Shown here: positions 21,783 through 63,439 of the stretch, piece by piece
Layout: each line of letters begins with the position of its first letter
How positions within the stretch are numbered: position 1 is the first letter of the stretch
Assembly (NCBI RefSeq): GCF_910592395.1
Contig: NC_088311.1
Coordinates: 6,264,501 to 6,328,500 of the forward strand
Direction: 5' to 3'
Length of the DNA: 64,000 nucleotides
Origin: Lineus longissimus
Lineage: Eukaryota; Nemertea; Pilidiophora; Heteronemertea; Lineidae
Translations under genes and position numbers: made by a program
Notes under the pieces: generated by a model
The model's input: only the letters and a program-made list of their open reading frames with translations
The model's database searches: none
What the model was told of the DNA's origin: nothing

Positions 21783-24700
21783 ATGGCGGGGGGACGGGAT
21801 GTCCATCTTGTCCCGATGATGAACACGGATTTCAAGGAGTTGGAACGCAGGCATCTCAACCGCGTGAAGTTCTCACCAATGGAGGAAGAGTATCTCTCCA
21901 AGTACTTACTCTATGTGGACGAAACGCAGCGCGTGTCGCGTGAGAAGTGCGATCCGATTGTTGCCGCAGTCGAAAGGACCATGCTGTCGATGCAGGCCCG
22001 GCTACAGGAAACTCCCGCATTCTCCAACGGCTGGTTGACGGAGTGTGGTAGTTTCTTTGAGGACACGAAAGTCGGTGAGGCGAATGAGTTTGATTACATT
22101 TATTTGGTATCCCGACAGGATTTTGTGGCGGAAAATGTTCAAATCAAACTGACAAAGCCTGCAAAATCAGACATAACAGCAAAGGCGTTTTATAAACTCT
22201 ACATGAACCACGGGCTGAATTCTGGTAGCTTTACGCGCAACGTGAGTGCTGTTGGTGGGCCACCTTCACCATTTTTAGCAGCTGCTGGGGCTCCGGTAGA
22301 CGACACTGAGATCCACGCTTGGAAACTTCACCACGACTTCTACAAAGTAATTGAAGAAATTATCAGGGACATGTTTGACTTGAAAGACGACACGAGGACA
22401 GTGGTGTTAAAAAAGGCTGGACCTGCTGTGAAATTGGTTTTATTGATTCACGAAGGTGATAAAAAGAGCGAGATCAGCCCGAGGTTTGTAAAAATTGACA
22501 TAAGCCTTGCCCTGGAAGCGAACGCAAGGAAGCTATTGGACGACAAGACTCTTCGTTCGTACGCCTCGTTCCTCCATTCAATGGACCAGCTGAAATGCCA
22601 CTTCGTGCCCGCCCACGACTACTGGAAACTCTCCTTTGCCGCTATGGAGAGGGACCTCATGAACAAGACATCGGCCAAGGACTATAAGGGAGTTTGTTAT
22701 CGTGCCATTAAGGTAAAATGTGTTGCTTTTCATTCTTATAGGGGGTATAGCCAGCTGGAGCTAGGTGGTCAGATTTGTAGTCCACAGTATGCTTAGCTAA
22801 GATGACTCGTATGCTCAGGGGCCTGGCCAGGGGTTTCGTTTGATTCTATACGCCGTATTATCATATTCCTCCCGCAAACGTAAATAGTTGCCGTGATGTA
22901 CTGTAAGATAGGAGAGACCCCTATCTGTGACTTCTCAAAACTTGATTTGAACTACCTGGCTCGCACATAGTGTCTCTCTTTTAAACTAAATTTATGACAA
23001 AAATGAAATACTGCACATTGCCAAAATGACAACAACCAAACCCTACGATTTACATTGTATTTGGTGAAAATCACATTTTGTTAATTATGCATTACAAACA
23101 AAAATACGTGATATATATTGTAGGATCTCCTCCAAGTGTGACACACTTTGAGGAAATCACACGACACAAGTGGTAATTGGTTTTCCACTAATTGGCGTAG
23201 AATTAACAAACTTCCATCCTTTGTTTCTAGTCCATTGACCTGGTGTGCGGATCTCGGGTTTCCGAATGTCGCAATACAGTATTTTCGAACAGTATATGGT
23301 TGAGGCATATCTTGGCATATCCGTTCTTGGCTCTGGGCCACTCTCAGATCACCAGAAACCCTGATGATATCATGAGCAAAATGATCGTATGAGTTCTTAT
23401 GTGTTCATTCACAATTGGGAAAGGGCAAATCAATGGTGGTCAAGATGAGTGAGACGTAAAACTGAGATCCCTTGCACCTGGTGTCTGTGCTAGAGGTCAG
23501 GCAAATTACCCCATGCAGGCGGAAAGTAGCTTGCTTGCGATTGACTCTTTCCTCTGCAATGGCCGGAACCGCGGTTGCACACGAAGACGTTCCGCCCGCC
23601 TTTGATGAGGAATTCTCTCTGCAGAAAACCTCCTCCAAGTGCAGAGCGAACGCTGAAGAATACACCAGGCTCAGAAAAGATACTGATGTGAAAGCAATGG
23701 ATGTCTCAGTTACAGAATGCCTCTATAATATGCTAGCGGTTGGGTTAGTGATATCAGAAAATGCCATTGGATTGGGACCTGTCTGCAATCCTGGCTGACA
23801 TGCGTTTCCGTCACATGCCTGGGAAATCATCGGCCGGGTCAAAATAACAATATTTCCGTTCATTTTTTTAGATTCTCCGGGACCAAGTTGACGTGAAGGA
23901 TACACTGGGAGATGGCATCCTCTCCTCCTACCCTCTTAAAGTCACACACCTGAAGAAGACCCTCTCGGCGTATATCAAAGACGAAAAAGACACTTGGACC
24001 AGAGACAATATCGGGAGGAACGTTGTGGCAATCGCGCGCGCGGTTGACAAGGACGGCGAAAGAAACAAGCTGAGTGGCCTGTTCCTGCGTAACGACAACA
24101 TCATCTCGGAATCTGATAGGTCGTACTTGGAGAGTAGGCGTATTTTGACAGAGTTGAAAAACTTGGCGACTGACTACAAAGTACATGGTTGTCTTCATAC
24201 TGTTTCTTGGTTGATTCTGTTGTTGTGTTCTATTGGAATCATCAGTATTGAGACAGTGACTTGGAATGTGGTTGACTGGGATCAATTTCACAATGATTGC
24301 GAGGCGTACTGGCACAACAAAACTGACTTTGCGATAGTTCCTCACGATCCTATAGATGTAACCTTCCTCTTCGTCTACTCCATCCTTAGCTGGCTGTTAC
24401 TCCTAACCAATCTTATCTCGCTAAGCTTGGTGCACATCTTGGCGTTCAAAATGGACAAACCTCTATTTAGAGTACTGCCAAACCTGAGGGCAATTTACGT
24501 CGTGACGACACTCGCAGCTGCAGCGCTGTGCGCATTCGACATTTTCATCATCATCGATTTCATCAAAGACAATGGATGCATCCACCTTGGAGAACCACTA
24601 ACCTTGACGATTTCTGCTTGGACGATCCGCTTTCTTGCAAGCGTTCCCATTTTTCTGTTACTGATTTCTTTCGTTGTCAATGCGATATACTACAGAGACA

Positions 24701-24921
24701 GACGGACATGCACGGGCTATGATGTCATTTTCTTCTCGTGTCCATGCTGTGCGAAAGGAGGCTCCACCTGTACCAGCAGTGAAACTGACGCAAGAGAGGA
24801 CCCTTACGTCGATGTGAATGGGAGATCCTTTCGGTCCCGCGCCTTTTCATTTCCTTCCATCCTCAATGTACATGTGATTCCCACCGATACACTTAATCCC
24901 CCTGACACGGACGAGGAGTGA
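21783..24921 (+). CDS. Mab-21/cGAS-like nucleotidyltransferase fused to four transmembrane helices
   Basis: Two exons, 21,783-22,712 and 23,872-24,921, join in phase 0 (ATTAAG|GTAAAA ... TTTTTTAG|ATT) to encode 659 residues. The ATG has the context AAAATGG. Residues 1-345 are a Mab-21 domain. The cGAS-type motif GSFFEDTKVGEANEFD spans 89-104 (G89-S90, E102-x-D104), the third acidic ligand is probably D239 in VKIDIS, and the family's WKLSF (281-285) and LSSYPLK (327-333) motifs are present. Family knowledge: such proteins bind nucleic acid and make cyclic dinucleotides, though many Mab-21 members are inactive. No cGAS zinc ribbon is visible. Residues about 416-438, 472-500, 517-541 and 555-583 are strongly hydrophobic. 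They predict a four-helix membrane module with both ends cytosolic. The loops hold C453, sequon N459-K-T and C546, and the tail holds CPCC (600-603). Activity and ligand are unknown. Confidence 0.88.
23559..23798 (+). CDS. doubtful ORF inside the Mab-21-like intron (possible alternative start exon)
   Basis: An ATG in good context (GCAATGG) starts 79 codons within the intron at 22,713-23,871. The first 45 or so are charged and look protein-like (MAGTAVAHEDVPPAFDEEF...). An alternative first exon spliced to the membrane exon would yield a membrane module without the enzyme. However, no strong donor follows in frame, and chance is the more likely explanation. Confidence 0.15.
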   Translation: MAGTAVAHEDVPPAFDEEFSLQKTSSKCRANAEEYTRLRKDTDVKAMDVSVTECLYNMLAVGLVISENAIGLGPVCNPG

Positions 24922-41800: not shown

Positions 41801-44800
41801 AAAATGATTTGGCTGCAATATTCAACTGGGAATTGTAAGAGAAATTATTACCAGAATCACTGTCACCAGAATTTTTCTTTTTTTCAAAGTGTTCTGACTT
41901 ACATTGCACAAACCATGCAGGTTTTCTTCATAAAAAAATTGCCAATACTTCTTTCTCGAAAGAAAGTTTCAAAAAGGCACCAAATGTTCATTCTGGCCGA
42001 CAGATTTCTGCAGTATGCTGGTAAAGGAACACCCCCCCTGGGGTGGTTTCAACTTTCCATTTAGGTCACCTCAATGAAGCGCAAACGAATATTCGGCAGA
42101 TCCATATTTGTTCTCCGAAAATATCTTTTGTATAAGGTGGCTTGTTTACATTAGAGGAAAGTGATCTGCATTTTGATGAATTGGCTTGAAAGAGGCAGAT
42201 ATAGCGCAGAATAAGTGGGTTTGGGTATTTTAGGTTTTGAGAGAGCGAGGTCAGACTAAATAAATGTTGCATGTGAAGAGGGTCAAGCTGTATACAGTTG
42301 AGGTGGGAGGCCCTAATTGTATTGGAAGAGAGGACCAAGGTGCCTTCTCGAGTCCTTTCTCTGCTGATGTTAATAAGGCAAGGCAAGACAAGGCTGGACA
42401 AAAATGGTTTATAATCTCCTTTCTTTAGAGCTAAAATTGTTCCTTAATGACGCTCAACTCAATACTCAAAATATCTGTAAAAAGACCACGCCATAAGCGT
42501 AACTGCAAATTTATCATATTCATAATCAGAAACCCTTAAACATTTTGTTTAAGGTAAGTGTACATGTTTGTGCAATCGAGTTTCAGACACCTGGGGAATA
42601 CTGCATTAATAAACGGCCTAAGTGGCCGATTGTCATGAATTCCAGCAATGCAGAGTCAATAGACAAAGCGAAATGCGTACATCCTAGAGTATACTCGACA
42701 AAATCTGTTCTCACTTGTCTCTACTCGAGCTGGCACTACTTCCAGCTTACCCCTATACCTGGGGCTCATTAAAGCTTACCAATTCAGGAATATGTACACG
42801 TTTCGCTCGGATGGTGCAGCTACAATCGTGAGTGGGCGCATGTAAATATTCAGGAACCCAGCACATCGATGAATCAATGCACATGTGCGACTGTCATTCT
42901 GATCCACCCATTTTCTTTGGATATTCCCGGCTTCAAAGTTACAAGACACTACATCTTTATAATATTCAGCACTTTGAAAAACGACATAAAGTGGTATTAT
43001 CAGAATCTAATACGAAACAAATGCGGTTTTTTTTATTGTAGGAAGAAGCAGGACCCCCAGATTGGCTCACAGTGCCACCTACTATAGGAACCGAGCTTAT
43101 GAGGAATACTATTTCAGCATAAATGAGGCGCTGCAGCTGCCCAAGTTTGCTTATGAATAGAACTGGAACTGGAACAATCTGGAATTGTCCTGAATGTTTG
43201 GGATAATTTTATATATGTCTGCTTGGCAACAGTAAACAGCAACATTGCGTATTCTGCACAGAAAGAAAAAAATCCATTATTCGTGTACTTTAAGATATCT
43301 TTTTCACACGTTATTTGCACTTTTTTTCAGATGAACTTTAACGTTCTGTTCGACTGCTGCAGTTTCTGCGTGAAATCACCAAAAATACGAGTGACATTTT
43401 CTCGTGAAAAAGACTATAGAAGAGGGGTGAAACGTTTTATTCATGCTATTATTAGTATTTTGGTCTATTTTCCAGCAGTGCAAATTGGACAACTGTAGTT
43501 CAAACTCTTTCACTTATGCGCACTGGAAAGCATTTACACTTTTTTAGGCCACATCAGAAATGGCAAATATTCAGGACCCATTTCAATAAAACGTAAAAAT
43601 TGTAACACAAATTGAAATATCTGAATATGGTATGAAGTGGACCAATTGAGGCTAAGTGCAGCTTTTTAGCAACCTCATTTTCAAAACCACTTATTTGCAT
43701 GCATAAGCAATGGAGACCGTCATTTAAAGACAACCCGAAGTTTCCATAAAATTGAAAAGATCAAACTGCATTCTTTTTGGGACACTCTCTACAGCATTTT
43801 GTCCCAAATGATGTAGAAATTATCAAACAGATGGAAAGCAGCATGTTATGAATCATTAGAATTCTTGTACGAGATGAACTCGCTGCATAACGACTAATTG
43901 AGAGGAGCTAATGAAGGGTCACCAAGCATACAAACACGAAAACAATAGCAATGGAATATTTTAATGACTAGTTGATGATTGGTGCACTGAGCTGAAGTTG
44001 TAATCGATACTTTTAGGGGGTTGGGGAACAATGCATTTGGTATCCCATGCACACTCTCTGCCAGATTTGCAGGTTCTTGGAGAATCCTAATGAGTTATTT
44101 GATGAACGCACGAAATGGAACTAACAGATCTCAAGTGCAATTTCCATGGTGATATTAACCCTACAGGTTGTAAGTCTGCCTTTTTTATCATCAAATATGG
44201 AATTTTCATTCTTCCAGATCTGGTGCAAATGCACAGTGGCTCAAACAGTATTGAAATTTATACCCTTCAATTACCCAATATTTTACGAAAGTACATGTAG
44301 ATGGTGGAATTTCTGGACCACGATCGAGTAATTGCAGCTATGTACTAAACACTATGGAAGAAAGGTGATATTCTCAAGGGGTCTGGCTTACTCTCTGGAG
44401 TTCTTGTTAACATGCAATTACCCTTGTTTAACCTAACAGTTGCTGCGGTCGACCACCAACCATTTCATGATATTCTACATCTAGCAATCAGACAAGAATA
44501 GGCTGGGTTTGTAAGAGGCAAAATATTTCTGAACGAAACCTCATGACAACCAGGCATTGCCATTGAGCACTGTACTCGCCATAAATGGCCCCCACAATTT
44601 GCTTCTCACCTGCAGTTCGACCCAAAACTCCCAAGGTTTGGAGGGCTTCGTTCCATAGGAATAGTAAACCCAGTAGGTGTCTCTCTTGATCTCGGCAGGA
44701 ACTTTGGTTGGATGCGGGTGGCCATTCCCGATAGACCACTTGGTGATATTCACGCCTTCTCTAACCTCGAAAACTATGCCGATGTGATCAGGGCCTGGAA

Positions 44801-47800
44801 GAAGACAAAATATGACAATGTCTTTATCAACTATTTGACCAACTATTATTTTTCTGTTAATAGGGGCTTTATCATATCAAATTACAAATGTGCTTAGTGT
44901 TGGGCTTGGTGTGATGATAGGTTGCATAGATTTTACCACTGAGCATACCTCAATAGATTCAGCTTAAGCAACCTGTCTCCAAAACTGCTCAGAATACGTG
45001 GCCAGTTACAGTATGGCTCACATTCAGGCTTTTCTGATGACTTGGTGCCACAAAAAGACCATTTGTGGAACCAAACTTCAGGACTCCTGCTAATTGAAAC
45101 TCCCAGGTTCGCTGCATCAAGTGCACATGTGAGTGTGCAGATCTGTTACAAGATGACCCATTTTTTCTAATTTTTCCTTCAAGCACAACACACTTAGCTC
45201 ATGCATCACACCGTATCGAGTACTGTATAGAACCTCTCTATTACAGACACCCATGGGACTAAATATGCTGTCCTTAAAGGAGGTGTCCTGATTACAGAGG
45301 TCAAATAGTATAGAAACAACCCATTTAGGACAGCCACAGTCTTTTTAATAGAGAAGGTGTCCTGCCAACAAAAGTGTCCGCCATTGGATGTTCAATTGTA
45401 CCGCATGTACACTAACAGTGGCCGACAAGCCGAGAAGAATTAAAGTGGCACTACAACACACACGGGCGACATGTAAATTAATATCATAATAAATTTCGAT
45501 TCCAAACGACAAGCATACTTGACAACGCTTGAAGATAGGCGTGAACGGAATGCGAAATTTACATATGATGACATGCACATATACTGCCATCTATTGTGTG
45601 TCGTAAAACTATATGTGTCGTCTGCGCTACCAGTATTCATTACTGAAGAGTGATTACGGACTACATCTATGAATCTGAATGGGAACTACACGTACACCTG
45701 TCGGATTGAAATGTCAGACATCAAAAATAACGTAGATGTTTATCCAACCTACCTGTAACTGCCAACTTGAGTAGCTGCTTATTGCCTTCCAAGAATTTTC
45801 TATCGGTGAGTTTGACAATAACGCGTTTTTCTGGAGGGATGGTTAATTTTGGACCAGGAACATACCAAGTTTTCCTAGAAAAAGAGAAATTCAATGTGAA
45901 AAACAAGAAGTGTAGAGTAAAGGAAAACAATAACAAGGATAAAACCTTCTTAAGTTATGTAATATACTATCACTCCAAAGCCTCTTCATCATTTTTTAAA
46001 TCACCACAAGCATTATTGAATTCATAAAGGGTCATCAAAGGAAATGGTTGTTAATTTCTATTCTAAAAATGTTAATTGGGCATAGTCAATAACTTCAGAG
46101 GGATATGGACCTACCTCATCATTGTGAGCATTGGTAATAAATATGGCATTCCACAATAAGGGCCATCACATTCATGTGGTTTTGCACCCTCCAACTCTTT
46201 GAGGTATGGAATTAATGCCTCTGTGCCGACAGCATCAAACGGGATGAACCACATGCCCGAATCTGTCTTCGTCACCTCTCCTTCTTTGTTGTAGAAGTGA
46301 CGTTCAATATGCTGAAAAATAAGAAAAGGACTGATAAACAATATAATAATAAATAAATTATTATTTGTAAAGCGCCTGTATCACTTGAAAACAAATGTTC
46401 ACCGGCGCTGGTGAGCTCTATTGAAAAGAAGGGTCTTGAGTTCTTTGCGAAAGGTTGAGACATCCGATGTAGCTCTCAGGGTGGGGGAAAGAGAGTTCCA
46501 CAGTTGAGGTGCTAAAGTGGCGAATGTTCGACCAAGGACTAAGGAGTTTGTTTCGAGAGATGTTTGAATATGACACAAGAGTTTGTTTAGATCATCTACA
46601 TCCTATAGACATAGTTTCGGAAAGGAGGAGTTCCCTGCTAGTGGTGTTTCTAAGTTCTTATTGAAAGTCTACAATAGTCAGACCTATAAAGGCCCATGAG
46701 GTGCAAGCTCTACGAAGAGTAAATGAGGGCGTTTATGATGTGTGCTACAGTATGATAAACAAGCAATTGCAACGAAACCGGCCAGGTTTACCCACATAGA
46801 AACCCAACAGTGTGACCGTTATACTCACTGAAACAACATGTCGCTGGGTTGTTGGACCGGCCAGGTCGTACCGGTACGGAAAGCCCAACGGTGTGAATAA
46901 GACAACAATGAATGTTGCCAAGAAGATGCTACCAAGACACAAAAGGGTGCGCTTCATGGACCTTGTGACGTACACGACACTTGACTGGAAAAAATACATA
47001 ATATGTTAATGAAAAAAAACCCTGAAAATAATACACCAGTCTACGAAAGTATGAGCTGATTAAAGGAGCTGAGCTGTTATTTTTTCTCTCCTACTTATTC
47101 TGGACGAATTTGGTTCCAGTCAGCTTTTAATCAAATTTTAGGGTTATATCATGTGTGCTGGTGCATCTAGTTTGGAGACAGTCACAACCCTGGAGAAACA
47201 CCACAAAGAAAAACAGCTTTCCTTACCTGATAACTCATATGAATGATAACCACACCAGCATTGACCAACCCTATGAATATATCTGTGTTGATCTCTGTAC
47301 CAACCCGACCCATCAGTGGGACAAATAACACATAGACATTATAGATGAGATATGAGATGGCGAGGCTTGGGAATGCTTGAGATAGGAGATGAATCACTAT
47401 GTACATGACCCTTGCATCTGAAAATATAGATGAGACCAACTGAAAAGTGATGATAAGGACCCTGATTAGAGACTGTAATTTCAAAGTGCCAACAGAATCA
47501 AACTTATGTCTGAGATGAGTACCAATGCTGGATTCAAAATGTCAAAACGTAGTCCTAGAGAACTGCTTTATCATATATCAGCAGGTACACGTTCCACCAG
47601 AATGAAGAGAACCCCTATGATTGCAATAATCTGTTTCAAATTAATAGGTAAAGTATATTTCTAAGTTTTGTATTGGCAAAAATTTGAAAATTCAATCGAT
47701 TCTGCAAAAGTGATGTCGCACATCTGTCAACAACATCTTGACTTATCATTTGATCAACAGTACCAAAGGACAAATCAAGGAAAATTTAGCGCAAAAGTTG

Positions 47801-50800
47801 CACAAGATGCCCTTAGTTAAGGCCTTAAAGTACCTACCCTGATATCGTAAACCCCAAATCTTGACACCCCTGTCTTTTATCATTAATGGAAGGAGTACAA
47901 GGAGAAGCACAAGAAAAGCTGAACCAATCTCTGCATATGTCATCACAGTCATTATGGTTGCCATGATCACCAAATTAGCATCGAAGTATAATCCCTCTAT
48001 ATGCCACATATTACCAAATCTCTGAAAGAAAATACATACACATGTAAAGGGCAATGATCTGTTCTCTATTACTTGCAATTGCAAAATATTTCTTAATTTT
48101 CAATTCTGAAAATATCATGTCACTTGTGACTATGAGCAGGTCACTTCACTGATAGGCAAAATCTGATTCTTTCCAACTGGGTCTGTGTAAAAACCAAAGC
48201 GTTCAACGGTTCAGGGAAAGCAAGTAAACCAAAGTGGGAAATGGATGCCTTAGGCCATAATTAGTACTTAAATGAAGTGATACCATCCAAGCCTAAAGCA
48301 GATGATGAAGAAGGTGACTAAAGCCTGAAGATAAAGTTTCTCACCTTATAAAGATATTTTTTGGCGACTATATGTACCGTGAGATTTGCCATGACAGCAG
48401 GGATGATGTACAGACCAATGACATTGAAAGTATGCGTATACCAAGACATTCGCCTCCCCATTGCGATCAGAAGTAGTGCCACCAAAACCACGCCAAGTAA
48501 CGTAGCAATCCAAGCAATGAACATTACAACAACGGCTTTTACGAGATTGCTGAGGTACGTGGTTCCTGTCAGGCCTGGAGGAAAAGCAGACGGACAAAAC
48601 AATCATTTGATGTTGATTGGAATACGAAATGTTTTCCTGATACAAAGACAAAATAATGGCACTTTATAGTATCCTTGATATCTCAATGATGGACTGATTG
48701 AAATCTAACAATGGAAAGTGATTTTCATTGAAAATAGAAGCAGATGTATTGATCAAAGATAAAAGAAGAGAAAGTAGATCCCATCATGAGTTTTTTTAAT
48801 ACTGTTTACCTATGAGACACCATCAAGATAAATTACAACTTGCCAAATTTATGTGCTGAAATATTGCCACATGAAATTCATCCGGCATTTAAATTGGCCG
48901 TTCAAGGGGTGAACATCTCGGCACCAAAAATCACCTCGGCCATGTTGGAAGAAATGATGTCACATTATGGGGAGATTTCTTCATCTGGGAAAAAAGGGTC
49001 TATACAGAAAACAGATTTGAATAAAAAAATTCAGCCACTCTTACCGTTTGTCCTAAATCCAGCTGTTTTTTTAGCAATGCCAATGAAAACGATGATCGCG
49101 GTGATGTAATTGACGAATCGGCCAACTCTGTCTGGGTACATAATGAGGAACTTGCCAAGGATATCATAGAACACCATATTTCCCTTTGCCTCATTTTTGG
49201 GGTCTTCCAGCTTGGGAGAGCTTGCAAGTCTTTTGACCAAAGCCAAGAGATTTTCACCTAAATAGAGAAAAGTGCAATGGAGTTTGTTTTTTGAAATATT
49301 TTGTTCACATGTCCCAAATGTGTGATTTGTGAGGTTCAGCATTGTTCCTCTAGTTCACAAATACAACAAAAATGGCTTGGTAGTACACACTACCATCATA
49401 ATACTCTGTAACCATACAGAGAAAACTCGACTGGCATCAAGGCATACTGCCTGGTGTACATCATTTTAGAATAGAAGTAATGGCTTCATGACCCGATTGT
49501 GTCTTTTCCCAAATTTGCCTTTTCATGATTAAGGCTACAAATTTGGTCTCAATGCCAGTTAATTTTACCTGAGGCAAACCATCATAGAGAGGTTCTAATA
49601 AATGGTTGTGGAGATATAGCAGATTTAGTCGCAACTTCAAGGTGAACTCTAGTCTAAGTTTGAAAGATTAGTTATTGTTTCATTACTCTTTACCTCCTCG
49701 TTGAAGGCATCCTTTAGGAATCCTGTCAGCGGTATCGAATTCTGTATGATAAACATAACCATTGTTGATGTAGGCTATGTCAATACCTGTAATTATAAGG
49801 GCACTTTGAGCTGCTATCCAGTGGAAATGTATAACTGATGCTGAGCATTTACTGGTCACACTCAGTGCAGACACAAACTAACTGAGCTTCGTTGAGGAGT
49901 ATACACTGTAGTGTATAGAACGGAAAATTTTCGCAGCATAAAATTTTCGAATGATATATATATATATCTGCGACAGAATATTTTTGCGAATCAAGAGATT
50001 TTCTTCTGATGAAATTTAAATTGTCTACATTGACATAGCGCTCTTAGTGAATAGGCGCTGTAGTGCATTGATGGCTATATCAGAATCCTCAAATCCACTG
50101 TCAACAGGTCTCCTTGTGACCAGTGATTGATTAGGCCATAGACTGACATCTGGGCAGTCATTGACGCATTGAGACATTTCAACTTCAAAAGCTATTTTTT
50201 TAGAGGTCCAAATCTGAGACGGTCATATATCACCCTCTAATAGAAATCCACCAGATTCTTATAAAAAGTGGCTCTTAACAAGTCATAAACATCATACAAG
50301 TCATGTATTTCAAAGAGTTGAATCACAAAACATATTCATCCTTTGGTTTATGGCTTCACATACAACCGGTCGATATATAGGCCTACTTGTTATTATCTCC
50401 AGTCACGAAGGCTGTCTACGGGAGATAAAACAGTCTTTCCTCCAATTTGTTTAATCGGATTCAGGAATGACCTCTTGTCCAACGGCAACGCTGACAGTTT
50501 CTCTGGAGGTACCAATCATTCAGTTTTACACTTTTGATAATCGTCTTTTGATTGAGACATGAATGAAACAGAATGTCCTCCAAGACTGAGAGTCAAGGCA
50601 AGAGCAGGGCAATGTTTCCATACATGTATGAGCTAAGTATGAAACCTGCAATGAACACAGAGACACCAGGCACCAAAAACGTCATAAGCCTTTAAAGTGG
50701 GTGCCAACAAGAAGAAATCACAGCTATGCATAAAAAGAACTCTACCCTCACCTGGAATGTTGCCAAAATCTCTATAGATTCTGAAGTCCGTATCGGAGGG

Positions 50801-52816
50801 GATGAAGCCACTCTGAAATATCTCCTGGCCAACGATTGAGGCATACGGATAGACGGCGGCTTCAGCATATGCTTTGACAAGCCAAGGGTTCTCTGGACCT
50901 TTAACAAGAGGATACACATTAAGAAGGATGAGCCAGGTTAAACACATACCCGGTATTATCAATATGATAACACAACATTTAATTTTGTTTAATTCTAGTT
51001 GGCAAAATCTAGCCACATTGAGACAGCAGATTTGAAGTTATCTATCATTATAGTAGGACTTCAGATGATTCAGGGCCGATCTTCATCCCATTTTGATGGA
51101 TCACTCACTTATTACTTTGAATCGGCAGAAAATTCCAGATTTTATGTCTGGTTATGCATCCAATGAGAATCTGGGAATATATTTCATTTTCTGTTGATTG
51201 TGGTAATTTGAAGTCCTAAAACGAGCATGTGACACTGTCCTGATGGTATTCCCAGTGAGTCAATACAGGGATCGTTCACTTCTTCCTATCACTCACCAGT
51301 TTGAAAGACAAGTTCTCTGCCTCCTGACCCCGCAGAATCCAAATTAACAAAAGCCCTGATATTCTTAGCCCATTTGTGCTTGGTAATGAATCCATGGCTA
51401 GCCTGTCAGAATAAAGTAAAAAAATTATCATCAGGGAGACCCTCTCTTATAAAGACACCGCATTTCGTACCAATTTGGTCATTTCCAATGAATTTGACCT
51501 CTGTAATCTGGACAGCATGTGTCGTACATGAATTCAACATGAAGTCAGAAATCTTATTCTTACATGAAAAATGTGGATTTTTTATAGCACTTTTCAGAGT
51601 ACACAGCCCAGTATGCCTCAATTCCTAGCCAGCTCAAAGCTTTTCATCCTTCACAATTTGTCCACTCTTATCCAGGACAATATGACTGCAAACGACGACA
51701 TTCTACTCTAAGCACCAATCTGTAAATCATCATTACCTGCAATATATTTTCTTCCGCACCATTGAAATTAAAAACAATGTTATACTTGAATGGTCGCTCA
51801 TCTTGAGATAATATCCGCAGTGCTTCTAGCATGAGTGCACAGCTAACAGCATCATCGCTGGCACCTGAAAAAAACAAGAGTGTCATTGTGTAGGTGGTTC
51901 CTGCAGCATGTCTTTGACTGTTCCCAGATTGTGATTCTACATGAGGTGTGTCTTATGCTGTAATCAACCAACAGACCTAACCAGGGAGTTGCTTTCAACT
52001 CTTGACATGATGATGTTCCTAATAAGTAAATTGGTGCCACACATGTCTTCCAGGCTTGGTTGTGACTGATGGTTGTGACCATCTTGATCATTTCAAGTTC
52101 ATGAGTCTTCTGTAAACATGATATTTCACTGTATTACATGAGTTCTGTGGGCAAAGGCATGATTATAATCCCCCCCCCCCCAAACTGCAGATCTGCAGAT
52201 CTGCAGAAGGAAATTATTTGGGCCAACTTCATTGGCCTCCCATCAAAATATATCAACTCAACTCACCTGGGCTTCCAACAATAGAATCAAAGTGACAACT
52301 GACAAGCAGGGCATGTTCAGCTCCAGTCTTTGGTCCAAACCTCACCACAACATTCTTAACCAGGTCATAATAACTAGAAAACTCGCCGAGGAACTGCAAC
52401 GTGAACGTCCCTGAAACTGTCTGAAGATCGCTCTCAATCCAATGAACAGATTGTGCCTTTTTCTGAATATCGGCAATTTGGTCCATCAGGTACTTAACAG
52501 TGTTCTTTTCATTTGCAGGTGAGCCAACGATTCGTTTGCCCCATTTTGTGATGGCCAACAAATCTTGATATGCCCTCTCAGCAACAAACATGCCGGGTTT
52601 GGCGCTCCGTAGATCAAGTGGTTCGGGCAATTTTCCATTTTCGTGGTGCACTATGCAAAAAAGCATAGCAAAGAAGGCAAAGATAACGATCCACATATAT
52701 TCCCTGACCAAAGCAGAATCCTTGGTCGCTTTCTTGCTGTCATTTGATTCATTTTGAGCTGACAGCCCATCGTCATGTTTAGGCAAATTCGGCCGGTGTC
52801 GAACAGTGGAGGCCAT
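38889..52816 (-). CDS. ERMP1: endoplasmic reticulum metallopeptidase 1 (M28 family), complete
   Basis: Fourteen exons join without a frame break into 889 codons (human protein about 904): 52267-52816, 51737-51864, 51297-51402, 50752-50898, 49694-49786, 49045-49257, 48345-48574, 47838-48021, 47227-47417, 46829-46984, 46115-46311, 45753-45874, 44610-44794, 38889-39056. All introns are GT-AG. The product is an ER-membrane zinc aminopeptidase-like enzyme. TM1 is at about 41-57. The lumenal M28 domain has its ligands: H175-x-D177, D187-D188, catalytic pair E221-E222, D248 and H324. [14 protein letters not shown] and FGNIPG are family signatures. Multiple helices lie in exons 6-10, then a lumenal C-terminal domain ending [11 protein letters not shown]...STYDVYTY. 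I chose ATG 52,816 (AAAATGG) over 52,840 (T at -3). It lies directly downstream of the lectin gene on the same strand. The last intron is 5.5 kb. Confidence 0.97.
45222..45385. mobile_element. diverged Tigger-like MITE fragment in an ERMP1 intron
   Basis: TACTGTATAGAACCTCTCTA, ATGCTGTCCTTAAAGGA, GGTGTCCTGATTACAGAGG and TTAATAGAGAAGGTGTCCT recall, in diverged form, the MITEs at 62.1 and 62.8 kb. It lies in the intron between ERMP1 exons 12 and 13. It is too decayed for termini or a target duplication to be placed. Confidence 0.5.
46335..46740. repeat. probable dispersed repeat in an ERMP1 intron
   Basis: The stretch beginning AATAATAAATAAATTATTAT, then TTTGTAAAGCGCCTG...GGCGCTGGTGAG, has the look of the TAAAGCGCC-type interspersed repeats common in marine invertebrate genomes. 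It fills the intron between ERMP1 exons 10 and 11. No full open frame is present. The classification rests on recognition of the pattern, and a repeat-library search would be needed to confirm it. Confidence 0.4.
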
Positions 52817-53241
52817 TTTTATGGGAAGCAGTATCAGCATAAAATCCTACGGCGATATCGCCTAATTGACCACGTGACGTCGATTTTATTACACGTGACC
52901 TTGTCAATCAGCGGGACTTTCAAATGGCAGATTTCTCAGTGACATCACGCCCAGTGTGAACTGGATGCTAATAAGTAGTTTTAAAAATACCAGATAGAGT
53001 GTCCACTCCTCTTATTCATAGTCCTACGATAAATCAAGTGTTTCGTAGAATACACACGTAACAAAGGCCAGATGCCAATCGTACATACACCGCGACATTC
53101 AAATTAGGGACGGACGGCACTGCTCGCTGTAGTATCAGTCATATTCGGGACGGCTCCTGGTTTTGCAGTAGTTAGCTAATTGAAAATGCGGCCCCGCGAC
53201 CTTCGCATCAAGACAATCGTTTGCACTCTTGAGCCGTATGT

Positions 53242-53780: not shown

Positions 53781-56700
53781 TTAGCCTTCGTTGAAAAATT
53801 TCACCGGGTCATCTAATTCACCGTCCGCTGCGTCTACTGGGTCGTAACCAGCATTAGAGAATTCATTCGAATGATCGAGTCCCTCGTACTCCTTTTTCTG
53901 CAACATTCTGAAAAGTTCAAGAGTATACATAACGTATTAAGACAAACGATTGGAGACAGTGAGTTTTCTCCAAAATTACACACCAATATTGTGAGAGGTG
54001 CAGTGGTTAATAGTGTCCAGGTGGGGGAAGACTTGTGTTTGAACGTCAGTAGTGCCGCTCACGTTTGCTTCTCTCAAAATGATTTCGCCCCGAAATAAGA
54101 GATCCATATAACTGAGTATAGAAGTTACTGGGCCGAGAGGACAATATTGATTGTCCTATCAAAAACGAAAGTGGTGGCAGCAAGTGCGTGCAAAGTGGTT
54201 TTACAATTTACCTTCGCCTGACCATATAGATTACTGCAAACAGACCGACGGCAATCAGGAATATAACCAACACGGAGATACCAATTGTGACACCTGCAAG
54301 AATTATCATGTTCAAGAGCAATTCAATTCAATAAAAACCGGTTATCTTATCTCATTCTGGTGTAGTAGTAGAAAACGTCCCCCAATACACCGGCTTTTTC
54401 TTCTTAAAGGGACAATATAGGCAGTGCAGCTAAACAGGCAAGATAAAGTTACACAAAGTCACAAATAGGGGTCTCTCACATCTCACAGTACGTCGAAATG
54501 ATTCACGATTGTGCGAGGAATATATTTAGTGCCGAGTCTGCATGGCCAAGGCCCTTTACTGTGTTTACTAGGCACTTGAAGATGGCCAAATTAGCCCCTC
54601 TGCTGCTGCCTATCTATAGTGCCCCTATGACTGAGACTGTCAAATAAGAAAAGAGCCAGGTGGGCGGCCGAGATTATGTTACTCTAAGTCGCCGGTGGGG
54701 GTCTCCACACCTCACGCTTGTTCCAGGAATATTTTCTGATTACTCTACTTCTTCACTACCGGACCCAGGTCTTTTTAAGTGTGCATAATTATAAGGTCAT
54801 TAATTGGCCCATGACCCTGCCTCTGTTTCCATGCCAAAGTTATGTTCATATGCTACCCTTATGAACTTTACCTTAAAGCGGTCAATGATTTTACTTTACC
54901 TTGTGACAACAGCGCCTGCGGCTCATCAACGACAGTTCCGTTTGCGGGGGTTGTTTTAATTTGGAACGATCCATTCGTCGACCCTTGATCAGTTGGTGGC
55001 GTATGCGTCTGTGGTGTCATGGTTACACTGAATGTCGAACTGTCATTACCACCTTCTGTTTGGCTTGGAGTTACGCTTGCTGTTTGGCTTGGAAAGGTAC
55101 TAGTAGCACTTCCTGTTGGAATACTTGCTGTCATGCTTGGAGTTAGAACACCAGTTGTATGGCCGGTTGAAGCTGCAGTACTCGGTGTTTGATTTGAAGT
55201 TGTAACACTTGGCGTTAGGCTTGACGTTTGACTTGGTGTAAGAGTTGGAGTTGTTATACCTTTCGTTTGGCTCGGAGTTTGAACAATATTGCTGCTTGGC
55301 CTTGTAGCACTTGGTTTCAGACTTGGACTCATTGCCGCACTTTGTGTTGCGCTTGAAGTTGTAGCACTACGACTGGGGGATGATTCACTTGAACCTTGGA
55401 TAGCGCTTGGTGTTTGGACAAGAGTATGACTTGGTGTTTTGTCCAGAACTGCAACACTTGATATTTGGCTCGGTACTGTACCAATTATTGTTTGGCTCGG
55501 TGCAATGACACCTGTTGTTTGACTTTTGGTCGTGGCACTCGTGGTTAAAACACCCGGCGTTAGACTTGACGTTTGACTTGGGGTTAGACTTGGTGTAAGA
55601 GTTGGAGTTGTAATACCTTCCGTTTGGCTCGGAGTTTGAACAATATTGCTGCTTGGCCTTGTAGCGCTTAGTGTTTGGACAATAGTATGACTTGGTGTTT
55701 TGTCCAGAACTGTAACACTTGATATTTGGCTCGACACTGTACCAATTACTGTTTGGCTCGTTGTTATAATACCTGCCGTTTGACTTGTGGTCGTTGCACT
55801 CGTGGTTAAAATACCCGCCGGGGAGGACATCTCCGTACTCGCAACAACTGTCGGCGGCAGATTAGTAACATCTTTCTTCACAAACTCGCAAATATACCCT
55901 TTGGTATTGCCACAGTCCTGGTCATCCCATGTCCAGCTGGCGGGGGACCACAACAGCACACAGAATTCCGTGATATTGTGATCCTTTGATGGTTGGTCCG
56001 TTGCCCAAGCAGCAAACGGAAGTTGTCCTGAAAGCAGAGTCGTGACAACATGACTTGGTACCGAGTTGATGCCTTACTCATCACCAAGGTTGATATTTTG
56101 TAGTTTATACTGTAAAATTAGGGAGCATAAAACCAGGAGAGTCAGACGAGTGGATGTCTGTTCCACTAAAGAGAGATTTTCAAAGGGTATTCTTCGTATT
56201 TCTTTTCAAAGTTTTTGAGTTGTCACAACAAAGTTTTTTAGCTGTAACTAAAAGTTAATTTCTGTGCCTCCCAAAGCAATATGTTCGATTTGGTCAATCT
56301 TTGCCCAATATAATTTACGAAGACGAATATTTCATTCAGATACCGTTATTGACGCTGGGGTAGTAACACCAGGGTCCAGTTTCGTTTTTCGATAATGTCT
56401 TCCAGCAGCATCCTAGGTTTGTACAGCTCTGTTCGTCGGCATTGTCATGCTTATGACAGTCGACCCGCATGGTGCTGGCAAGATCTGGGCTGCACTGTGT
56501 TGGCCCTACAAGAAAGGCTGATAGTTGTAGCTTACATTCTACAAAGCGGACATAATATTCAATTCGTTGAATCGCCTCACAACACTATAATGTCACAGCA
56601 CCGGAGTATGATAGATGTATGATATCTTAGCCTCGTTGGGCTATTTCCGACGGTGTTGTGCATAGACTCTCACAGTTAGTCACAACGAAACAATCTCCTT

Positions 56701-59700
56701 TAGTCGGATGACATTTCCACGGTGACACTTTTCGTGCAGTGGGCAAAAATGAGCTTTCGGGGTATTTTATTCATATGGTCGGATATCACAAGACAGCAGG
56801 ACGAAAAGATGGAACGCTTAGTCGTCAGTCTTACCGTCTGCCCAAGTAAAGTATTCCTGCTCATGGTTGTACGGGTAGAGTCCAACCCAAAAGTCCGAGT
56901 TCTTAGCAGCGGGAATTGTACCAAGTTCTTGAACCAATGTCTTCTGCGTAATGTTGTCTTTTATGGCTACCAGACTTCCTCCTGCTGTCCGGCATTTCTC
57001 GTACGCGGCATTCCATGACAATGCATTGAGGACAACATCATAGCAGTATGATTTGCCTTCGATTACATCGACGGCCGTGGAGATTTGTTTCTCACATGAA
57101 ACTGAAATAAACCGAAAAAAGGTTGGGATAAAGACAAGGAAGTGAGTTACATAATAGAGAGGTTCAGATTTTGATTCGAGAATGAGAATGCGAAAACGCA
57201 GGCATTTTGGCGATGGATATCGCGTTGCCTGAAATGATAACTTTGAAAAGATCAAATGATTTGAAATCGCTCAGAAGTTTTGTGTTCTACTCAAACGCTT
57301 AAGACGACGGCGACTCCCCACAGACGGACAATTTCTTTTCGCATTGATTCCATGAAACTTGCTGCTGTGCTCTTTTGTGGCGTCTGTGACAGTGATTGCG
57401 AATCAACACAAATACCATATCGGCATGACCAAAGATTTTTCACTGCCGGAAGACTTACCACCGGTCGTTGGTCTTGTCGTCGGAGAGACGGCCAGGGCAG
57501 TCGTTGTCTCCGCCGTCGAGATGGTGGGCGGAATAACTGCAAAGGTAAACCGAATCAAATTATTTTCACTGTTTTCTTGAAGCAACTTACAAAGTTTAGA
57601 GTTTTTACCAGCGAATCCGTTTATCGAGAAAAATCCTTCTTCCGAATCATGTCGCAGCATAAAGGGAATAAACATCTACTCATTAGGTGCCCAGAGGCTG
57701 TTCATGTTCAGCTGGGTAGAATGAAAAAAAAGTGTTAGTACTCCTGTTTTATCTTACCAAACTGGCAGATGTAGCCAATATCGCTGTGGAAATGTGCCAC
57801 ATCACAATTCTGATCATCCCACTTCCAACCATGGTCATGCCACAACAGAGCACATGAGTTTTCCGCGTCTCTACTGGGTTCATCGGGAGCCCAATCATCA
57901 AACGGGAGACGTCCTAGAAGTAAAGGTTGCAAGTCTTTCCTGTCACCATGGATTAGAAGCGGGTGTAAATTTCCTTCTGACAAAACCGTCTGCATACCCA
58001 GGTTCAAGTGTAAAAAGACTCGCAAGCACAAGTGCCATTGCGAAAGATCGGAGTGTGATATATCATGTGATGGGGGCAGACGAGGAGTAAACAAAAACTA
58101 AGGAAGATTCTCCTACAACTGGATAAACTTGTTAGCCATTGTCACATTTTTGTCATCAGGTGGCGCATTCACAAGAGGTTCCTAAATATTCGGTGGTGTT
58201 GCAATTGTGACTTTGCCTATACTTAGCGGTTGAGAGATACGTCAGAGAGGTTAATCTTGTGATGTGAGAAAAGACCAGTACGAGTGTGAAAGAGTATTCT
58301 GTCATCGTTGTCTTCGTTCCGCTCACCTCTCTCTACGGTCGGGTAGTAACACCAAGGTACGCCTTCAGTTTTCGATTCTTGATAGCAGCATCGTGAGGTG
58401 TTAGTGCAGTAAGCTTCGCCGTTGTCAGGTTCGCAGTCAACCTTCCGCGTATCTTGCAGCTTGAATGAACAATCGCCACCTGTGAAAATGAACTGTCGTT
58501 TTCAATGCACTGTCGTTTTCAATGTAGATATTGATAGGCGCAACCTTCCATGTTCGCTCGGACATGTCCATCCCATTTTTAAACCTTGATATTTGATAGG
58601 CACAACTTACCGTGTTCGCCTCGGACATGTCTATCGTATTTTTAAACCCTGATAACATACTACATGTATATAGTTAAAGTCTAGGCGTATGTGTGGGCTG
58701 TTTGAGGTCAGATTGACTCGTGGAAGGTTGTCTGGTTGATAAGTTTGATGGATCAATAATTTTCCCGTCAGTCACACCCAATCAAGACAGATTGACGATT
58801 GTGCTTGTAAATTGTACGATACGACTACTGATAAATCGGCTCTGACTGACTGAACTGCCAAAGACTGCATGATAGTCTGTCCACCCGCCATGTATAAATG
58901 TACAGACTGGTTATTGTTTAAGCTCGGATGTCGAGTGGATATAGGCATACCGCTGCAATTCATGTAATCAAACCACCAGATTTGGCAGTTGGTTGAGATA
59001 TAGCCGAGTTTACAGCAATCGAATAGGCTTACCATCTACCCAAGTAAAGTGATTGTTGTCAGAAGATTGCTTTAAGGGGTAAAGCCCTATCCAGAAATTC
59101 CAGCTCGAAGCAGCATTGATGTTACCAAGTTGTCCTAACAGCATTGCCTGGGTACTGTTATCATGGATGGTTACCAAGTTCCCGCCGGCCACACGGCAGA
59201 CAGAATGCGCAGTCTGCCATTTCGTCTTTTCCAGCACCGTGTTGTAACATAGAGATGAGCTTGAGAATGTATGGACGAGATCTGGTTTAGATGCAGTCAG
59301 GTAATTTGGACAAGGAGCTGAAAAAAGACGCGGGGCTGAAGTTGACAATGATAACGCTATTTGTTTTACTCACGATCCATCAGCGAAGACAATTGTGATT
59401 GAGTCACCACCTAGCGACACCCAGTCTTGTAATCAACCAAAACACTAAACTGAGCTACATAGCTTTTCCAACACGAACATGGAGCAAATGATCTGCTTGA
59501 CACGAGAACGTGTGGACACGGTTTGGTGTTGTTTGTAGGTGATTTGGACTCGGAAGCAGACGTGAAGACGACAGATCTTACTTATGAAGAGTTGACAATG
59601 ATAATGTGTTATTAACAACAGTTTTAAGTTTCCCCTTGAAAAGATACGTCTACTATCGAAGGGTGAAGGCTTATTGTATAATTCTAAAGAAACCCAAGAC

Positions 59701-60022
59701 CTTCAATACCTCAGAGATTGAAAGTGTATTATAATAGAATCTCTTATAATATCCCAGGACATTCAAAACTGTTACACCGGTGTGCTGGAGACGTACAACT
59801 GTCTTATGATAGAGTGAAGCCTCATTTGAGTTCTACAGAAAGGTTCTCGCGATAGACCGCGGGTTAAGTTGTGAAGTCGAATGATAACCTTTGCCATATT
59901 TATATCAGACCATAAATTCCAATTCAAAATAGTGGGCAAGACATACCTGATGGGTCCGCAGCGGAAGAGACGCCGGCGAAGACAAGAAGAACGACGACAT
60001 AACTCGGCATCATCATGGTCAT
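53781..60022 (-). CDS. membrane C-type lectin with two trefoil-interrupted CTLDs and a mucin-like stalk
   Basis: Ten exons give 837 residues: 59947-60022, 59033-59317, 58327-58479, 57758-57913, 57459-57536, 56835-57101, 56344-56505, 54900-56027, 54212-54293, 53781-53907. All junctions are phase 1 except the last (phase 2). In order: signal peptide (1-22); first part of CTLD1 (26-120, WIGLYP, FTWVDG); trefoil 1 (121-172; Cys 124, 136, 145, 151, 152, 164; PWCYYP); rest of CTLD1 (173-223, LPFDDWAPDEPS, WKWDDQNC); Thr-rich linker (224-249); CTLD2 first part (250-338); trefoil 2 (339-392; Cys 343, 355, 366, 371, 372, 385); CTLD2 rest (393-450); Ser/Thr/Pro stalk to 768; TM helix 770-791; tail with YEGL. 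The sugar-binding EPN/QPD motif is EPS and QPS, so calcium-dependent binding is uncertain. It is probably a mucosal or immune surface receptor (inference). Confidence 0.9.
55235..55785. repeat. in-frame internal duplications in the mucin-like stalk exon
   Basis: The block starting GGTGTAAGAGTTGGAGTTGT at 55,235 recurs at 55,592 (offset 357 bp, 119 codons). The block starting TGTTTGGACAA at 55,411 recurs at 55,672 (offset 261 bp, 87 codons). The offset changes by 96 bp, which is 32 codons, so both the duplication and the later indel kept the reading frame. The encoded stalk repeats phrases such as SSNIVQTPSQT and LDKTPSHT. Length variation between alleles is likely. Confidence 0.8.
58533..58657. 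repeat. tandem duplication of a 62-bp unit in a lectin-gene intron
   Basis: GATAGGCGCAACCTTCC...TCGGACATGTCCATC...TTTTTAAACC is followed directly by GATAGGCACAACTTACC...TCGGACATGTCTATC...TTTTTAAACC. It is intronic and has no coding role. Confidence 0.75.
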
Positions 60023-61425: not shown

Positions 61426-63439
61426 ATGGCGCTCAGTAAAGATCTTCCCGATATAGAGGTACGTTGAGGGTTTTCTTTAAAAATCATTGGCTAGCACATA
61501 CCGCAGCTGATTTAGAGCAGTGCATTATGCTGTAGCATGTATCATAATCATGGTCAGCACCAGGGACAGGGACCCGTGGGCCGTTAGCCCTACTCTAAGC
61601 AGAGACTGACGGTACTGGTCGATAGCGTTCTTTCTTGATATCTAATATACAAAGTCATTATATATGTGTCTTCATATATGCTACCATGTCAAACACGCTG
61701 GCTGTGTACGGGTGCATTTCGCGCTATAGGGCCTAGTAGGGCCGGGAAAGCACAAATGACTGATACGGTGCGATGACAAAATGATAACCAAATTCAAATT
61801 CAAATTCAAATTATTTATTTGCACAACTATCACAAGTACAGACAGTATGGCATAAACATGCATGAATATTACACAATAAAAGACATTACATTAAAACAGC
61901 TGGAAGAGTGGTAAGCCGGATGGATAAATGATAACCAACTGGAGGAGTTTTTGGTGACCTATTTTAGAAAAGATGTGTTTTATTGTCTCTTTGTAGCATA
62001 GATGGCTAGTATTTCGTGACTTGAATTAAAGGGTATAGCCTATAGGCCTAGGCATATTGCAAAGGGGCGGTTTTATTATCAAAAAGTGCCATTTTGCTCA
62101 ACATTTTGACTAAGAGTAAGAGATGTGCTTATAATAGTATATACAGTAGAACCTCCCTTAGCGGACACCTCTCTATTAAGGACAACCTCTCTATTAAGGA
62201 CAACCTCTCTATTAAGGACAACCTCTCTATTAAGGACAACCTCTCTATTAAGGACAACCTCTCTATTAAGGACAACCTCTCTATTAAGGACAACCTCTCT
62301 ATTAAGGACAACCTCTCTATTAAGGACGTTAGTTTTGGTCCCAAATCGGTTGTTTCTATTAAATTTGACCTCTCTAATCACGACACCTCTCTATTAAGGA
62401 CAACACTTGTCAGTCTCGAAGGTGTCCTTAATAGAGAGGTTCTACTGTTTTAGTTTTTAAGTCCCCCCACCCAAAGAAAAACCCAAATAGGTTTAAACTA
62501 CATGTAAAGGTACTTAGAGGGCCTTAAAGTACCTCTATGCTTGGAAAGAGTACAATGTACTTTCCCCTTTAAGGACTGCAGGTCACAGGACATGGTGAAA
62601 TAAGAACTGATTTCTAAACTTTGCTCAGCATTACATGAATGGTTATTTGCCACTTAGGATTATATGAATTTATTGGTTATTTGCCAAGTTCAGAAATTAG
62701 CTTCAAATAGTTTATGTTGAAAGAAAAAGTGTCTCCTTAAATTTGATAGAAGATGTGGTACAGTGGAACCTCCCTTAGGGGACACCTCTCTATTAAAGAC
62801 ACTAGTTTTGGTCCCAAATTGGTAGTTTCCTTTCAATTTGACCTCTCTAATCAAGACACCTCTCTATAAAGGACAGTACTTGTCAGTCCCGTGGGTGTCC
62901 TTAATAGAGAGGTTCTTCTGTACTTCTACTAGTGTCTCAGATTTGCTATGCCATGTGAACTGTACCAAAGCTCCACCTCCCCCCCCCACACAAATTCATT
63001 CTGACAATTTTGTAGTTGTTGTTGATGTTGTGGTGGTGTTGACGGGGGGGGCTTATACGTTCTTTTTCAAGACGCAAAGGTGATTCATCAATGTGAACGA
63101 GTTCTGGTACGCAGTTGATTTCAAGATATCACTAGATGACAGTAACTGATAATCAAAGGCAAGTCGGAGTCCGAGTAGTAAATTTCATCTTAACCTCAAA
63201 AATAGTTTCTTGTCATAAGAGGCTCATCTTCGTTTGAGGTGATATCTAATAATTTTTCTCTGTACTACAGTCCGAAATAAACATATATATATATAATAAC
63301 CCTGACCTTGTCCCAACTATCTTTTCAGAATTTGCTTGCTCTAAACCCTAGGCCCCTGCAACATGCAAGCCTCGTTCCAACTGCCACGACTAAGAAAAGC
63401 AGGCAGCATTGGAAGAGAAATGCTGACAAAGGATGCTCG
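61426..63439 (+). CDS. DPYD: dihydropyrimidine dehydrogenase, first two coding exons (gene runs off the right edge)
   Basis: Exon 1 (61,426-61,458) encodes MALSKDLPDIE and ends GAG|GTACGT. Exon 2 (63,329-63,439, after CTTTTCAG) continues in phase 0 for 37 codons, NLLALNPRPLQHASLVPTAT then KKSRQHWKRNADKGCS, ending TCG|GTAAGA. The pattern SKD..DIE..LALNPR...HA.L...KK...HWKRN.DK.C is the characteristic N-terminus of animal DPYD, the NADPH-dependent flavin/iron-sulfur enzyme that starts uracil and thymine breakdown in the cytosol. Only 48 of roughly 1,000 residues are present; the iron-sulfur cysteines lie further on, outside the window. The ATG follows GGC (G at -3). The first intron holds two MITEs. 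Both exons are short. Confidence 0.9.
61790..61860. repeat. (AATTCA)n run, possible 3' tail of a non-LTR retrotransposon
   Basis: AAATTCAAATTCAAATTCAA is followed by ATTATTTATTTGCACAACTA. On the minus strand this reads as a short unique sequence ending in a TTGAAT microsatellite, a common 3'-end layout of non-LTR elements. A similar CAAATTCAAATTCAAATTCA run occurs near 38,287. No reverse-transcriptase frame is nearby. Confidence 0.4.
62144..62447. mobile_element. Tigger/pogo-like MITE with internal 18-bp expansion, copy 1
   Basis: The element starts CAGTAGAACCTCCCTTAGCG and ends GAGAGGTTCTACTG, giving inverted termini CAGTAGAACC. TA precedes it at 62,142, though the right flank is TT. It lies in DPYD intron 1. 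Inside, nine tandem copies of ACCTCTCTATTAAGGACA (62,166-62,329) replace the single unit in the neighbour at 62,761-62,920. Family knowledge: short elements with CAG-type termini and a TA target are Tc1/mariner-superfamily MITEs. Confidence 0.82.
62166..62329. repeat. 18-bp minisatellite, nine units
   Basis: Nine nearly perfect units of ACCTCTCTATTAAGGACA lie head to tail. Because 18 is a multiple of three, all six frames stay open as hexapeptide repeats (for example NLSIKD). These are not genes. Confidence 0.92.
62448..62758. other. intron sequence between the two MITEs
   Basis: AT-rich intronic DNA of DPYD. No feature is recognised. Confidence 0.4.
62761..62920. mobile_element. Tigger/pogo-like MITE, copy 2 (single internal unit)
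   Basis: CAGTGGAACCTCCCTTAGGG ... GAGAGGTTCTTCTG, 160 bp, is flanked on both sides by TA (62,759-62,760 and 62,921-62,922), the target duplication of Tc1/mariner-type elements. It is collinear with copy 1 (TAGTTTTGGTCCCAAAT, TTTGACCTCTCTAATCA, GGTGTCCTTAATAGAGAGGT) but holds only one 18-bp unit. Confidence 0.82.

Follow-up and report, generated by a model that had tools for sequence, protein, structure and literature searches.

Can a complete trefoil domain sit inside a C-type lectin domain (CTLD), and what would such a protein recognise? The question is raised by a predicted minus-strand gene, at 53,781-60,022, in a 64,000-nucleotide stretch of the Lineus longissimus genome (391 Mb, 30 contigs). 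That whole stretch, C4:6,264,501-6,328,500, is referred to here as the window, and positions are window coordinates unless a contig is prefixed. The ten exons of the gene join into a frame without a stop that encodes 837 residues, in the predicted order signal peptide, CTLD1, CTLD2, Ser/Thr-rich stalk, one transmembrane segment and short tail; the product is predicted to be a type I membrane receptor. Each CTLD is split between two exons, with a trefoil exon between the halves, and it is very probable that this nested architecture is present in the mature protein. The introns are in phase 1 up to the transmembrane exon, and only the last intron is in phase 2. The exons are:

59947..60022, minus strand: exon 1, start codon and predicted signal peptide (hydrophobic residues 1-22)
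59033..59317, minus strand: exon 2, N-terminal half of CTLD1, ending W-V-D-G in phase 1 (gene model, Pfam)
58327..58479, minus strand: exon 3, nested trefoil 1, phase 1-1 (Pfam PF00088, 7.3e-7; frame analysis)
57758..57913, minus strand: exon 4, C-terminal half of CTLD1, with LPFDDW, EPS and WDD (gene model, Pfam, motifs)
57459..57536, minus strand: exon 5, Thr/Pro-rich linker joining CTLD1 and CTLD2 (gene model)
56835..57101, minus strand: exon 6, N-terminal half of CTLD2, ending W-A-D-G in phase 1 (gene model, Pfam)
56344..56505, minus strand: exon 7, nested trefoil 2, phase 1-1, with the weakest donor of the gene (Pfam PF00088, 3.1e-9)
54900..56027, minus strand: exon 8, C-terminal half of CTLD2, with LPFAAW, QPS and WDD, and most of the stalk (gene model, motifs)
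54212..54293, minus strand: exon 9, transmembrane segment (Kyte-Doolittle maximum 3.07 over 19 residues)
53781..53907, minus strand: exon 10, cytoplasmic tail with YEGL (YxxΦ) and NAGYDPV (gene model, motif scan)

An earlier, sequence-only reading of the window had described complete trefoils, each in an exon of its own, inserted in the long loop of both CTLDs, and most of this description holds. The trefoil exons lie at exactly 58,327-58,479 and 56,344-56,505 on the minus strand (29.4 and 37.0 bits, against a Pfam cut-off of 21), and both encode six cysteines, an adjacent CC and PWCYYP. Both CTLDs are cut after W-x-D-G: trefoil 1 (residues 122-171) is placed between W118-V-D-G and L174-P-F, the start of LPFDDW, and trefoil 2 (residues 340-392) between W336-A-D-G and L395-P-F, the start of LPFAAW. 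Two elements of the description have to be narrowed. Both trefoils pass the Pfam threshold, but the Cys3-Cys4 gap of trefoil 1 is five residues, not four, which departs from strict spacing; a strict PROSITE-style trefoil pattern matched nowhere in the window protein. The insertions are at the N-terminal border of the long loop, but they stand 11 residues ahead of EPS/QPS and thus outside the EPN-type motif itself.

The host domains remain recognisable around the insertions. Lectin_C (PF00059) and Trefoil matches overlap in each unit (42.4/29.4 and 52.9/37.0 bits), and the interrupted Lectin_C scores exceed the cut-off of 22.6. When trefoil 1 was left out in silico the frame stayed intact and the Lectin_C score of CTLD1 rose from 42.4 to 52.7 bits (2-101/107); leaving out trefoil 2 also kept the frame and raised that of CTLD2 from 52.9 to 62.2 bits (2-107/107). 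Each trefoil exon is bounded by AG and GT and is in phase 1-1, and the six split codons around the two exons, with the trefoil included or skipped, all encode Gly. In each, one of the three frames is open, the in-phase one, and the other two hold one to four stops. The core cysteines are C66, C192, C208 and C221 in CTLD1 and C286, C415, C431 and C439 in CTLD2, where pairing would, by analogy, be as in the family; the WIGL-like motifs are WIGL and WVGL. No description of a trefoil inside a CTLD was found in the portions of the open-access literature consulted. The available portion of a cnidarian survey names trefoil among the Pfam domains used for calling CTLD proteins extracellular (PMC8260672), so the two domains may share proteins elsewhere.

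The arrangement is repeated in a second gene. A genome-wide trefoil search, in which 30 of 30 candidates were scored and matches kept at E up to 0.1, returned 17 matches: the two window exons, four on C17, eight on C19, two at C4:1.80-1.81 Mb and one at C4:430,575-430,688. The last is a third nested trefoil, 5.9 Mb from the window gene, with six cysteines, at the equivalent phase-1 point of another CTLD. The gene that contains it was modelled from its locus (L034) at C4:427,832-431,819 on the minus strand, in the order signal peptide, CTLD half ending W-I-N, trefoil, CTLD half (EPS, WDD), Ser/Thr/Pro stalk, transmembrane segment and long tail. All of its introns are in phase 1 until the transmembrane exon, which is left in phase 2, matching the window gene. 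Its protein scores 37.7 bits for Lectin_C and 29.8 bits for Trefoil (35.2 for the exon alone), and with the trefoil skipped the frame is kept and Lectin_C reaches 47.7 bits over 2-107/107. The trefoil acceptor (...TTTCAAG) was picked to preserve the frame and does not look strong. Judged by their sequences, three nested units in two genes look like an inherited nested design, and three copies across two genes weigh against a one-off accident of gene prediction.

The predicted long tail of the second gene (L034 2333-2972, minus strand) contains YDEI, YTEV, YDVP and YDVM, unlike the short tail of the window gene. Upstream of this gene, at L034 6679-7749 on the minus strand, two frames score 29.7 and 30.3 bits to 7tm_1 (cut-off 30.5) and are probably a rhodopsin-like receptor gene. 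The trefoils at C4:1.80 Mb were rejected as further nested genes: no CTLD half was found there, and GH31 frames lie alongside, three of the four scanned matching Glyco_hydro_31_2nd. Near the tandem trefoils, in the stretch on C17 and in a single group of the three on C19, no CTLD matched better than E = 2. A viral-contig scan gave 27 pattern matches, with no relative among them.

Other CTLDs of the genome were examined for an intron at this point. At least 63 Lectin_C matches were found (150 of 174 candidates scored), neither half of the second gene's CTLD being among them; two belong to the window gene, and 60 of the other 61 were fetched, together with six larger stretches. Eight of the 60, with a match edge near the cut point, were inspected singly, as were stretches found by tblastn in L009-L012. 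Six other CTLD exons end past a W-x(2-4)-G turn, with the donor GT at bases 2-3 of the Gly codon, which is phase 1; four are clustered in some 8 kb of C13, and the other two are on C2. Three of these six were among the eight inspected singly, and a pattern script also picked up three. The remaining five of the eight comprise four without such a donor here and one seen from its 3' half and left unassigned, and in L038/L012 the CTLD exon continues beyond W-E-D-G. The host intron is therefore recurrent, not universal. On C13 and C2 the genome trefoil search gave no match. This placement agrees with that in fish CTLD genes, for which the available part of the source gives an intron 'downstream of the WIGL motif' (PMC514892). 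Since the trefoil exon is symmetrical (1-1) and the phase-1 intron would have pre-existed, insertion needs no change of frame.

The sequence-only reading also held that the nested unit arose once and was then duplicated together with its CTLD. The duplication is borne out: the two window-gene units share 42% identity in the CTLD N half, 44% in the trefoil and 53% in the CTLD C half, and the third unit shares 25-29%, 37-39% and 41-51% with them in the same parts. In a match comparison of the nested parts across 71 loci and the window, the CTLD C halves of the three units were mutual best matches (45.4-54.7 bits, any other at most 38.1), and a blastp comparison confined to the nested parts scored the third N half at 44.3 bits to that of CTLD1. 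The single origin was not recovered by a trefoil tree. One origin is argued for by the shared position and phase of the intron and by the mutually best CTLD C halves, and one insertion followed by duplication is the simplest reading of these sequences, not a demonstrated one.

What the nested units might bind was approached through their contact residues. In human TFF3, as far as the available part of the source describes, Asp20 and Trp47 are the only residues whose side chains directly contact N-acetylglucosamine-α-1,4-galactose (GlcNAc-α-1,4-Gal; PMC7221086). These align to the residues preceding Cys2 and preceding Cys6, and both Asp and Trp are kept in three of three nested trefoils; they are present together in three of eight distinct non-nested trefoils. 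The latter come from the 14 non-nested matches, nine of which were translated (L018 and L019 being identical); left out were L016 and L020, with the same scores as rows used, and L029-L031, which are partial or stop-bearing.

On the CTLD side, the altered motifs named by the earlier reading are present, EPS in CTLD1 and QPS in CTLD2, with EPS again in the third unit and WDD in each. The canonical calcium and sugar site (EPN or QPD, a Glu before the second core cysteine, and WND) is not found in the nested CTLDs. Loss of the sugar site through EPS was considered and not accepted, because EPS sites can bind glycans: the available parts of two reports describe such binding for DCIR and for a shrimp mannose receptor, both of them CTLD proteins that carry EPS (PMC3679074, PMC10341498). 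The idea that the trefoil replaces the sugar site is weak on the same ground, EPS alone implying no loss; the better reading is that the trefoil would extend the site. F313 of DC-SIGN is described as part of an extended sugar site in the portion of the source available (PMC7618208). Alignment with mannose-binding protein A starts from the glycine to which the insert is joined. F313 presumably lies just past W-x-D-G, which would place the trefoil beside the extended sugar site. Whether two sugar sites would work side by side in a surface receptor is, in our judgement, evenly balanced.

The explanation favoured overall, with a confidence slightly above even, is that exon insertion created a lectin with two sites. 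A trefoil exon with a phase-1 intron on either side would have entered an existing phase-1 intron that cut CTLDs near the W-x-D-G turn, and the nested unit would then have been duplicated within the window gene and into the second gene. The resulting protein would be a type I receptor of the cell surface with a Ser/Thr-rich stalk, and each of its lectin units would have two sites for reading sugars, namely that of the CTLD (EPS or QPS together with WDD) and the cleft of the trefoil (Asp, Trp); these would be adjacent because the long loop opens with a surface turn and the trefoil is set into that turn. Uptake would proceed through the YxxΦ signal, the tail suggesting, plausibly, an endocytic receptor. 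CTLDs are among the commonest animal recognition domains, and human trefoil factors read mucin glycans, according to the part of the source seen (PMC7221086). Placing one lectin fold within another, at the latter's loop border, would amount to exon shuffling directly into an intra-domain intron, not between domains, and a nested CTLD allows direct comparison with and without its trefoil. A bolder version, in which a splice-selectable trefoil cassette turns a one-site CTLD into a two-site reader of mucin-type glycans and has been copied as a heritable module across receptor genes, is possible but doubtful.

Several results weigh against a two-site lectin of single origin. All three units have Ser as the third residue of the EPN motif, and CTLD2 alone keeps the Glu that precedes the second core cysteine by two residues, so that calcium and sugar binding may be weak. 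The trefoil tree had no starred branch, and a branch separating the nested trefoils from the rest appeared in 5% of 200 bootstrap trees. With 44.7 bits each, a tandem trefoil on C19 is as good a match to trefoil 2 as trefoil 1 is. By tblastn, the third CTLD N half did not find the other two, its best matches being other CTLDs on C13. In the second gene the split codons do not encode Gly: they give Gln and Ala with the trefoil included, and Pro without it. A two-sequence AlphaFold2 model of the trefoil pair alone was uninformative (predicted local distance difference test, pLDDT, 50.7; predicted template modelling score, pTM, 0.26), and the gene structure is itself a prediction from sequence.

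The same exon features bear on whether the trefoils are always included. Each might be a cassette exon that is mostly skipped to give an ordinary CTLD receptor, regulated inclusion switching or adding a ligand, with up to four isoforms from two cassettes. The phase 1-1 structure of both window exons, the Gly retained at the skipped junctions, the higher Lectin_C scores once the trefoils are skipped and the survival of the second gene's frame are all in keeping with this. Donor strengths, from an approximate scoring table, point both ways: that of trefoil 2 is the weakest of nine (3.27 vs 7.39-9.94), but that of trefoil 1 is the strongest (9.94). The similar divergence of trefoil and CTLD suggests that both are used, and we consider a cassette of this kind rather unlikely.

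An included trefoil might also break the CTLD, leaving an inactive or purely trefoil-reading form under a splice-controlled off switch. About 50 inserted residues in a turn can disturb a fold, and the trefoil-pair model is uninformative here; however, the core cysteines, the WIGL-like motif (WIGL, WVGL, WFGM) and WDD are kept in the three nested units, and the nesting persists past at least two duplications, making such a switch improbable. It is harder still to credit that the trefoil exons are a separate intronic gene or transcript, or an error of assembly or gene model. A lancelet gene-model fusion involving Lectin_C has been documented, in the part of the report available (PMC4967905), but here the exons are on the same strand with phases matching at all junctions, and the arrangement is repeated in the second gene. 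No in-frame ATG was found upstream of either trefoil exon before a stop (8 and 27 open codons checked). The separate-transcript form of this explanation is rejected on the grounds of phase, frame and the second gene.

The two-site receptor can be set beside known systems. The solved CTLDs nearest by sequence belong to the mannose receptor family (PLA2R, DEC-205, MR, MRC2 and the yolk sac IgY receptor), whose members, like the window protein, are type I membrane proteins with a tail signal of the YxxΦ type, comparable to YEGL and typical of endocytic receptors. In that family, by definition, ricin-B and FNII domains precede eight to ten CTLDs, a layout that the window protein does not share: it has two CTLDs only, each with a nested trefoil, and a long Ser/Thr stalk, and in residues 1-464, from the predicted gene start, Pfam found no ricin-B or FNII match, only Lectin_C and Trefoil. 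The secreted TFF1-3 have the six-cysteine trefoil too, and TFF3's sugar-contacting Asp and Trp recur in all three nested copies; the TFF proteins are free or tandem peptides, whereas the nested trefoils are embedded in another domain of a membrane receptor. Proteins of the GH31 maltase-glucoamylase type also contain a trefoil within a multidomain protein, in their case ahead of the catalytic domain; two trefoils of this genome (L032/L033) adjoin GH31-coding frames and have Asn and Ala at the TFF3 Asp and Trp positions. Fish antifreeze-like lectins have an intron in the same CTLD region, but a domain-coding exon like the trefoil here is not reported there in the part of the source available (PMC514892).

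The stalk of the window protein spans 328 residues, 42% of them Ser or Thr, without cysteine, and the tail has 44 residues counted from the first Arg, including YEGL and NAGYDPV. Within the stalk exon, at 55207-55820 on the minus strand, DNA stretches of 166 and 109 bases are duplicated with 89-91% identity, so stalk length may vary. A candidate relic of exon 2 at 59,503-59,553 had E = 0.28 and is not claimed. At about 62129-62390, a short tandem repeat of TTGTCCTTAATAGAGAGG-like units adjoins a dispersed repeat of, by eye, similar sequence.

Elsewhere in the window, an open reading frame (ORF) at 21642-22793 on the plus strand encodes a Mab-21 nucleotidyltransferase (PF03281, 8.8e-10), with weak PDB matches to cGAS over residues 92-156 (best 0.0021). 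A downstream ORF at 23872-24918, also on the plus strand, shows, by eye, several hydrophobic stretches, gave no match in Pfam and may belong to it; from their sequences, the two may form a cGAS-like receptor that has membrane segments. Downstream of the CTLD gene, at about 44544-52846 on the minus strand, is an ERMP1-type endoplasmic reticulum metallopeptidase gene (Peptidase_M28, ERMP1-TM and ERMP1_C).

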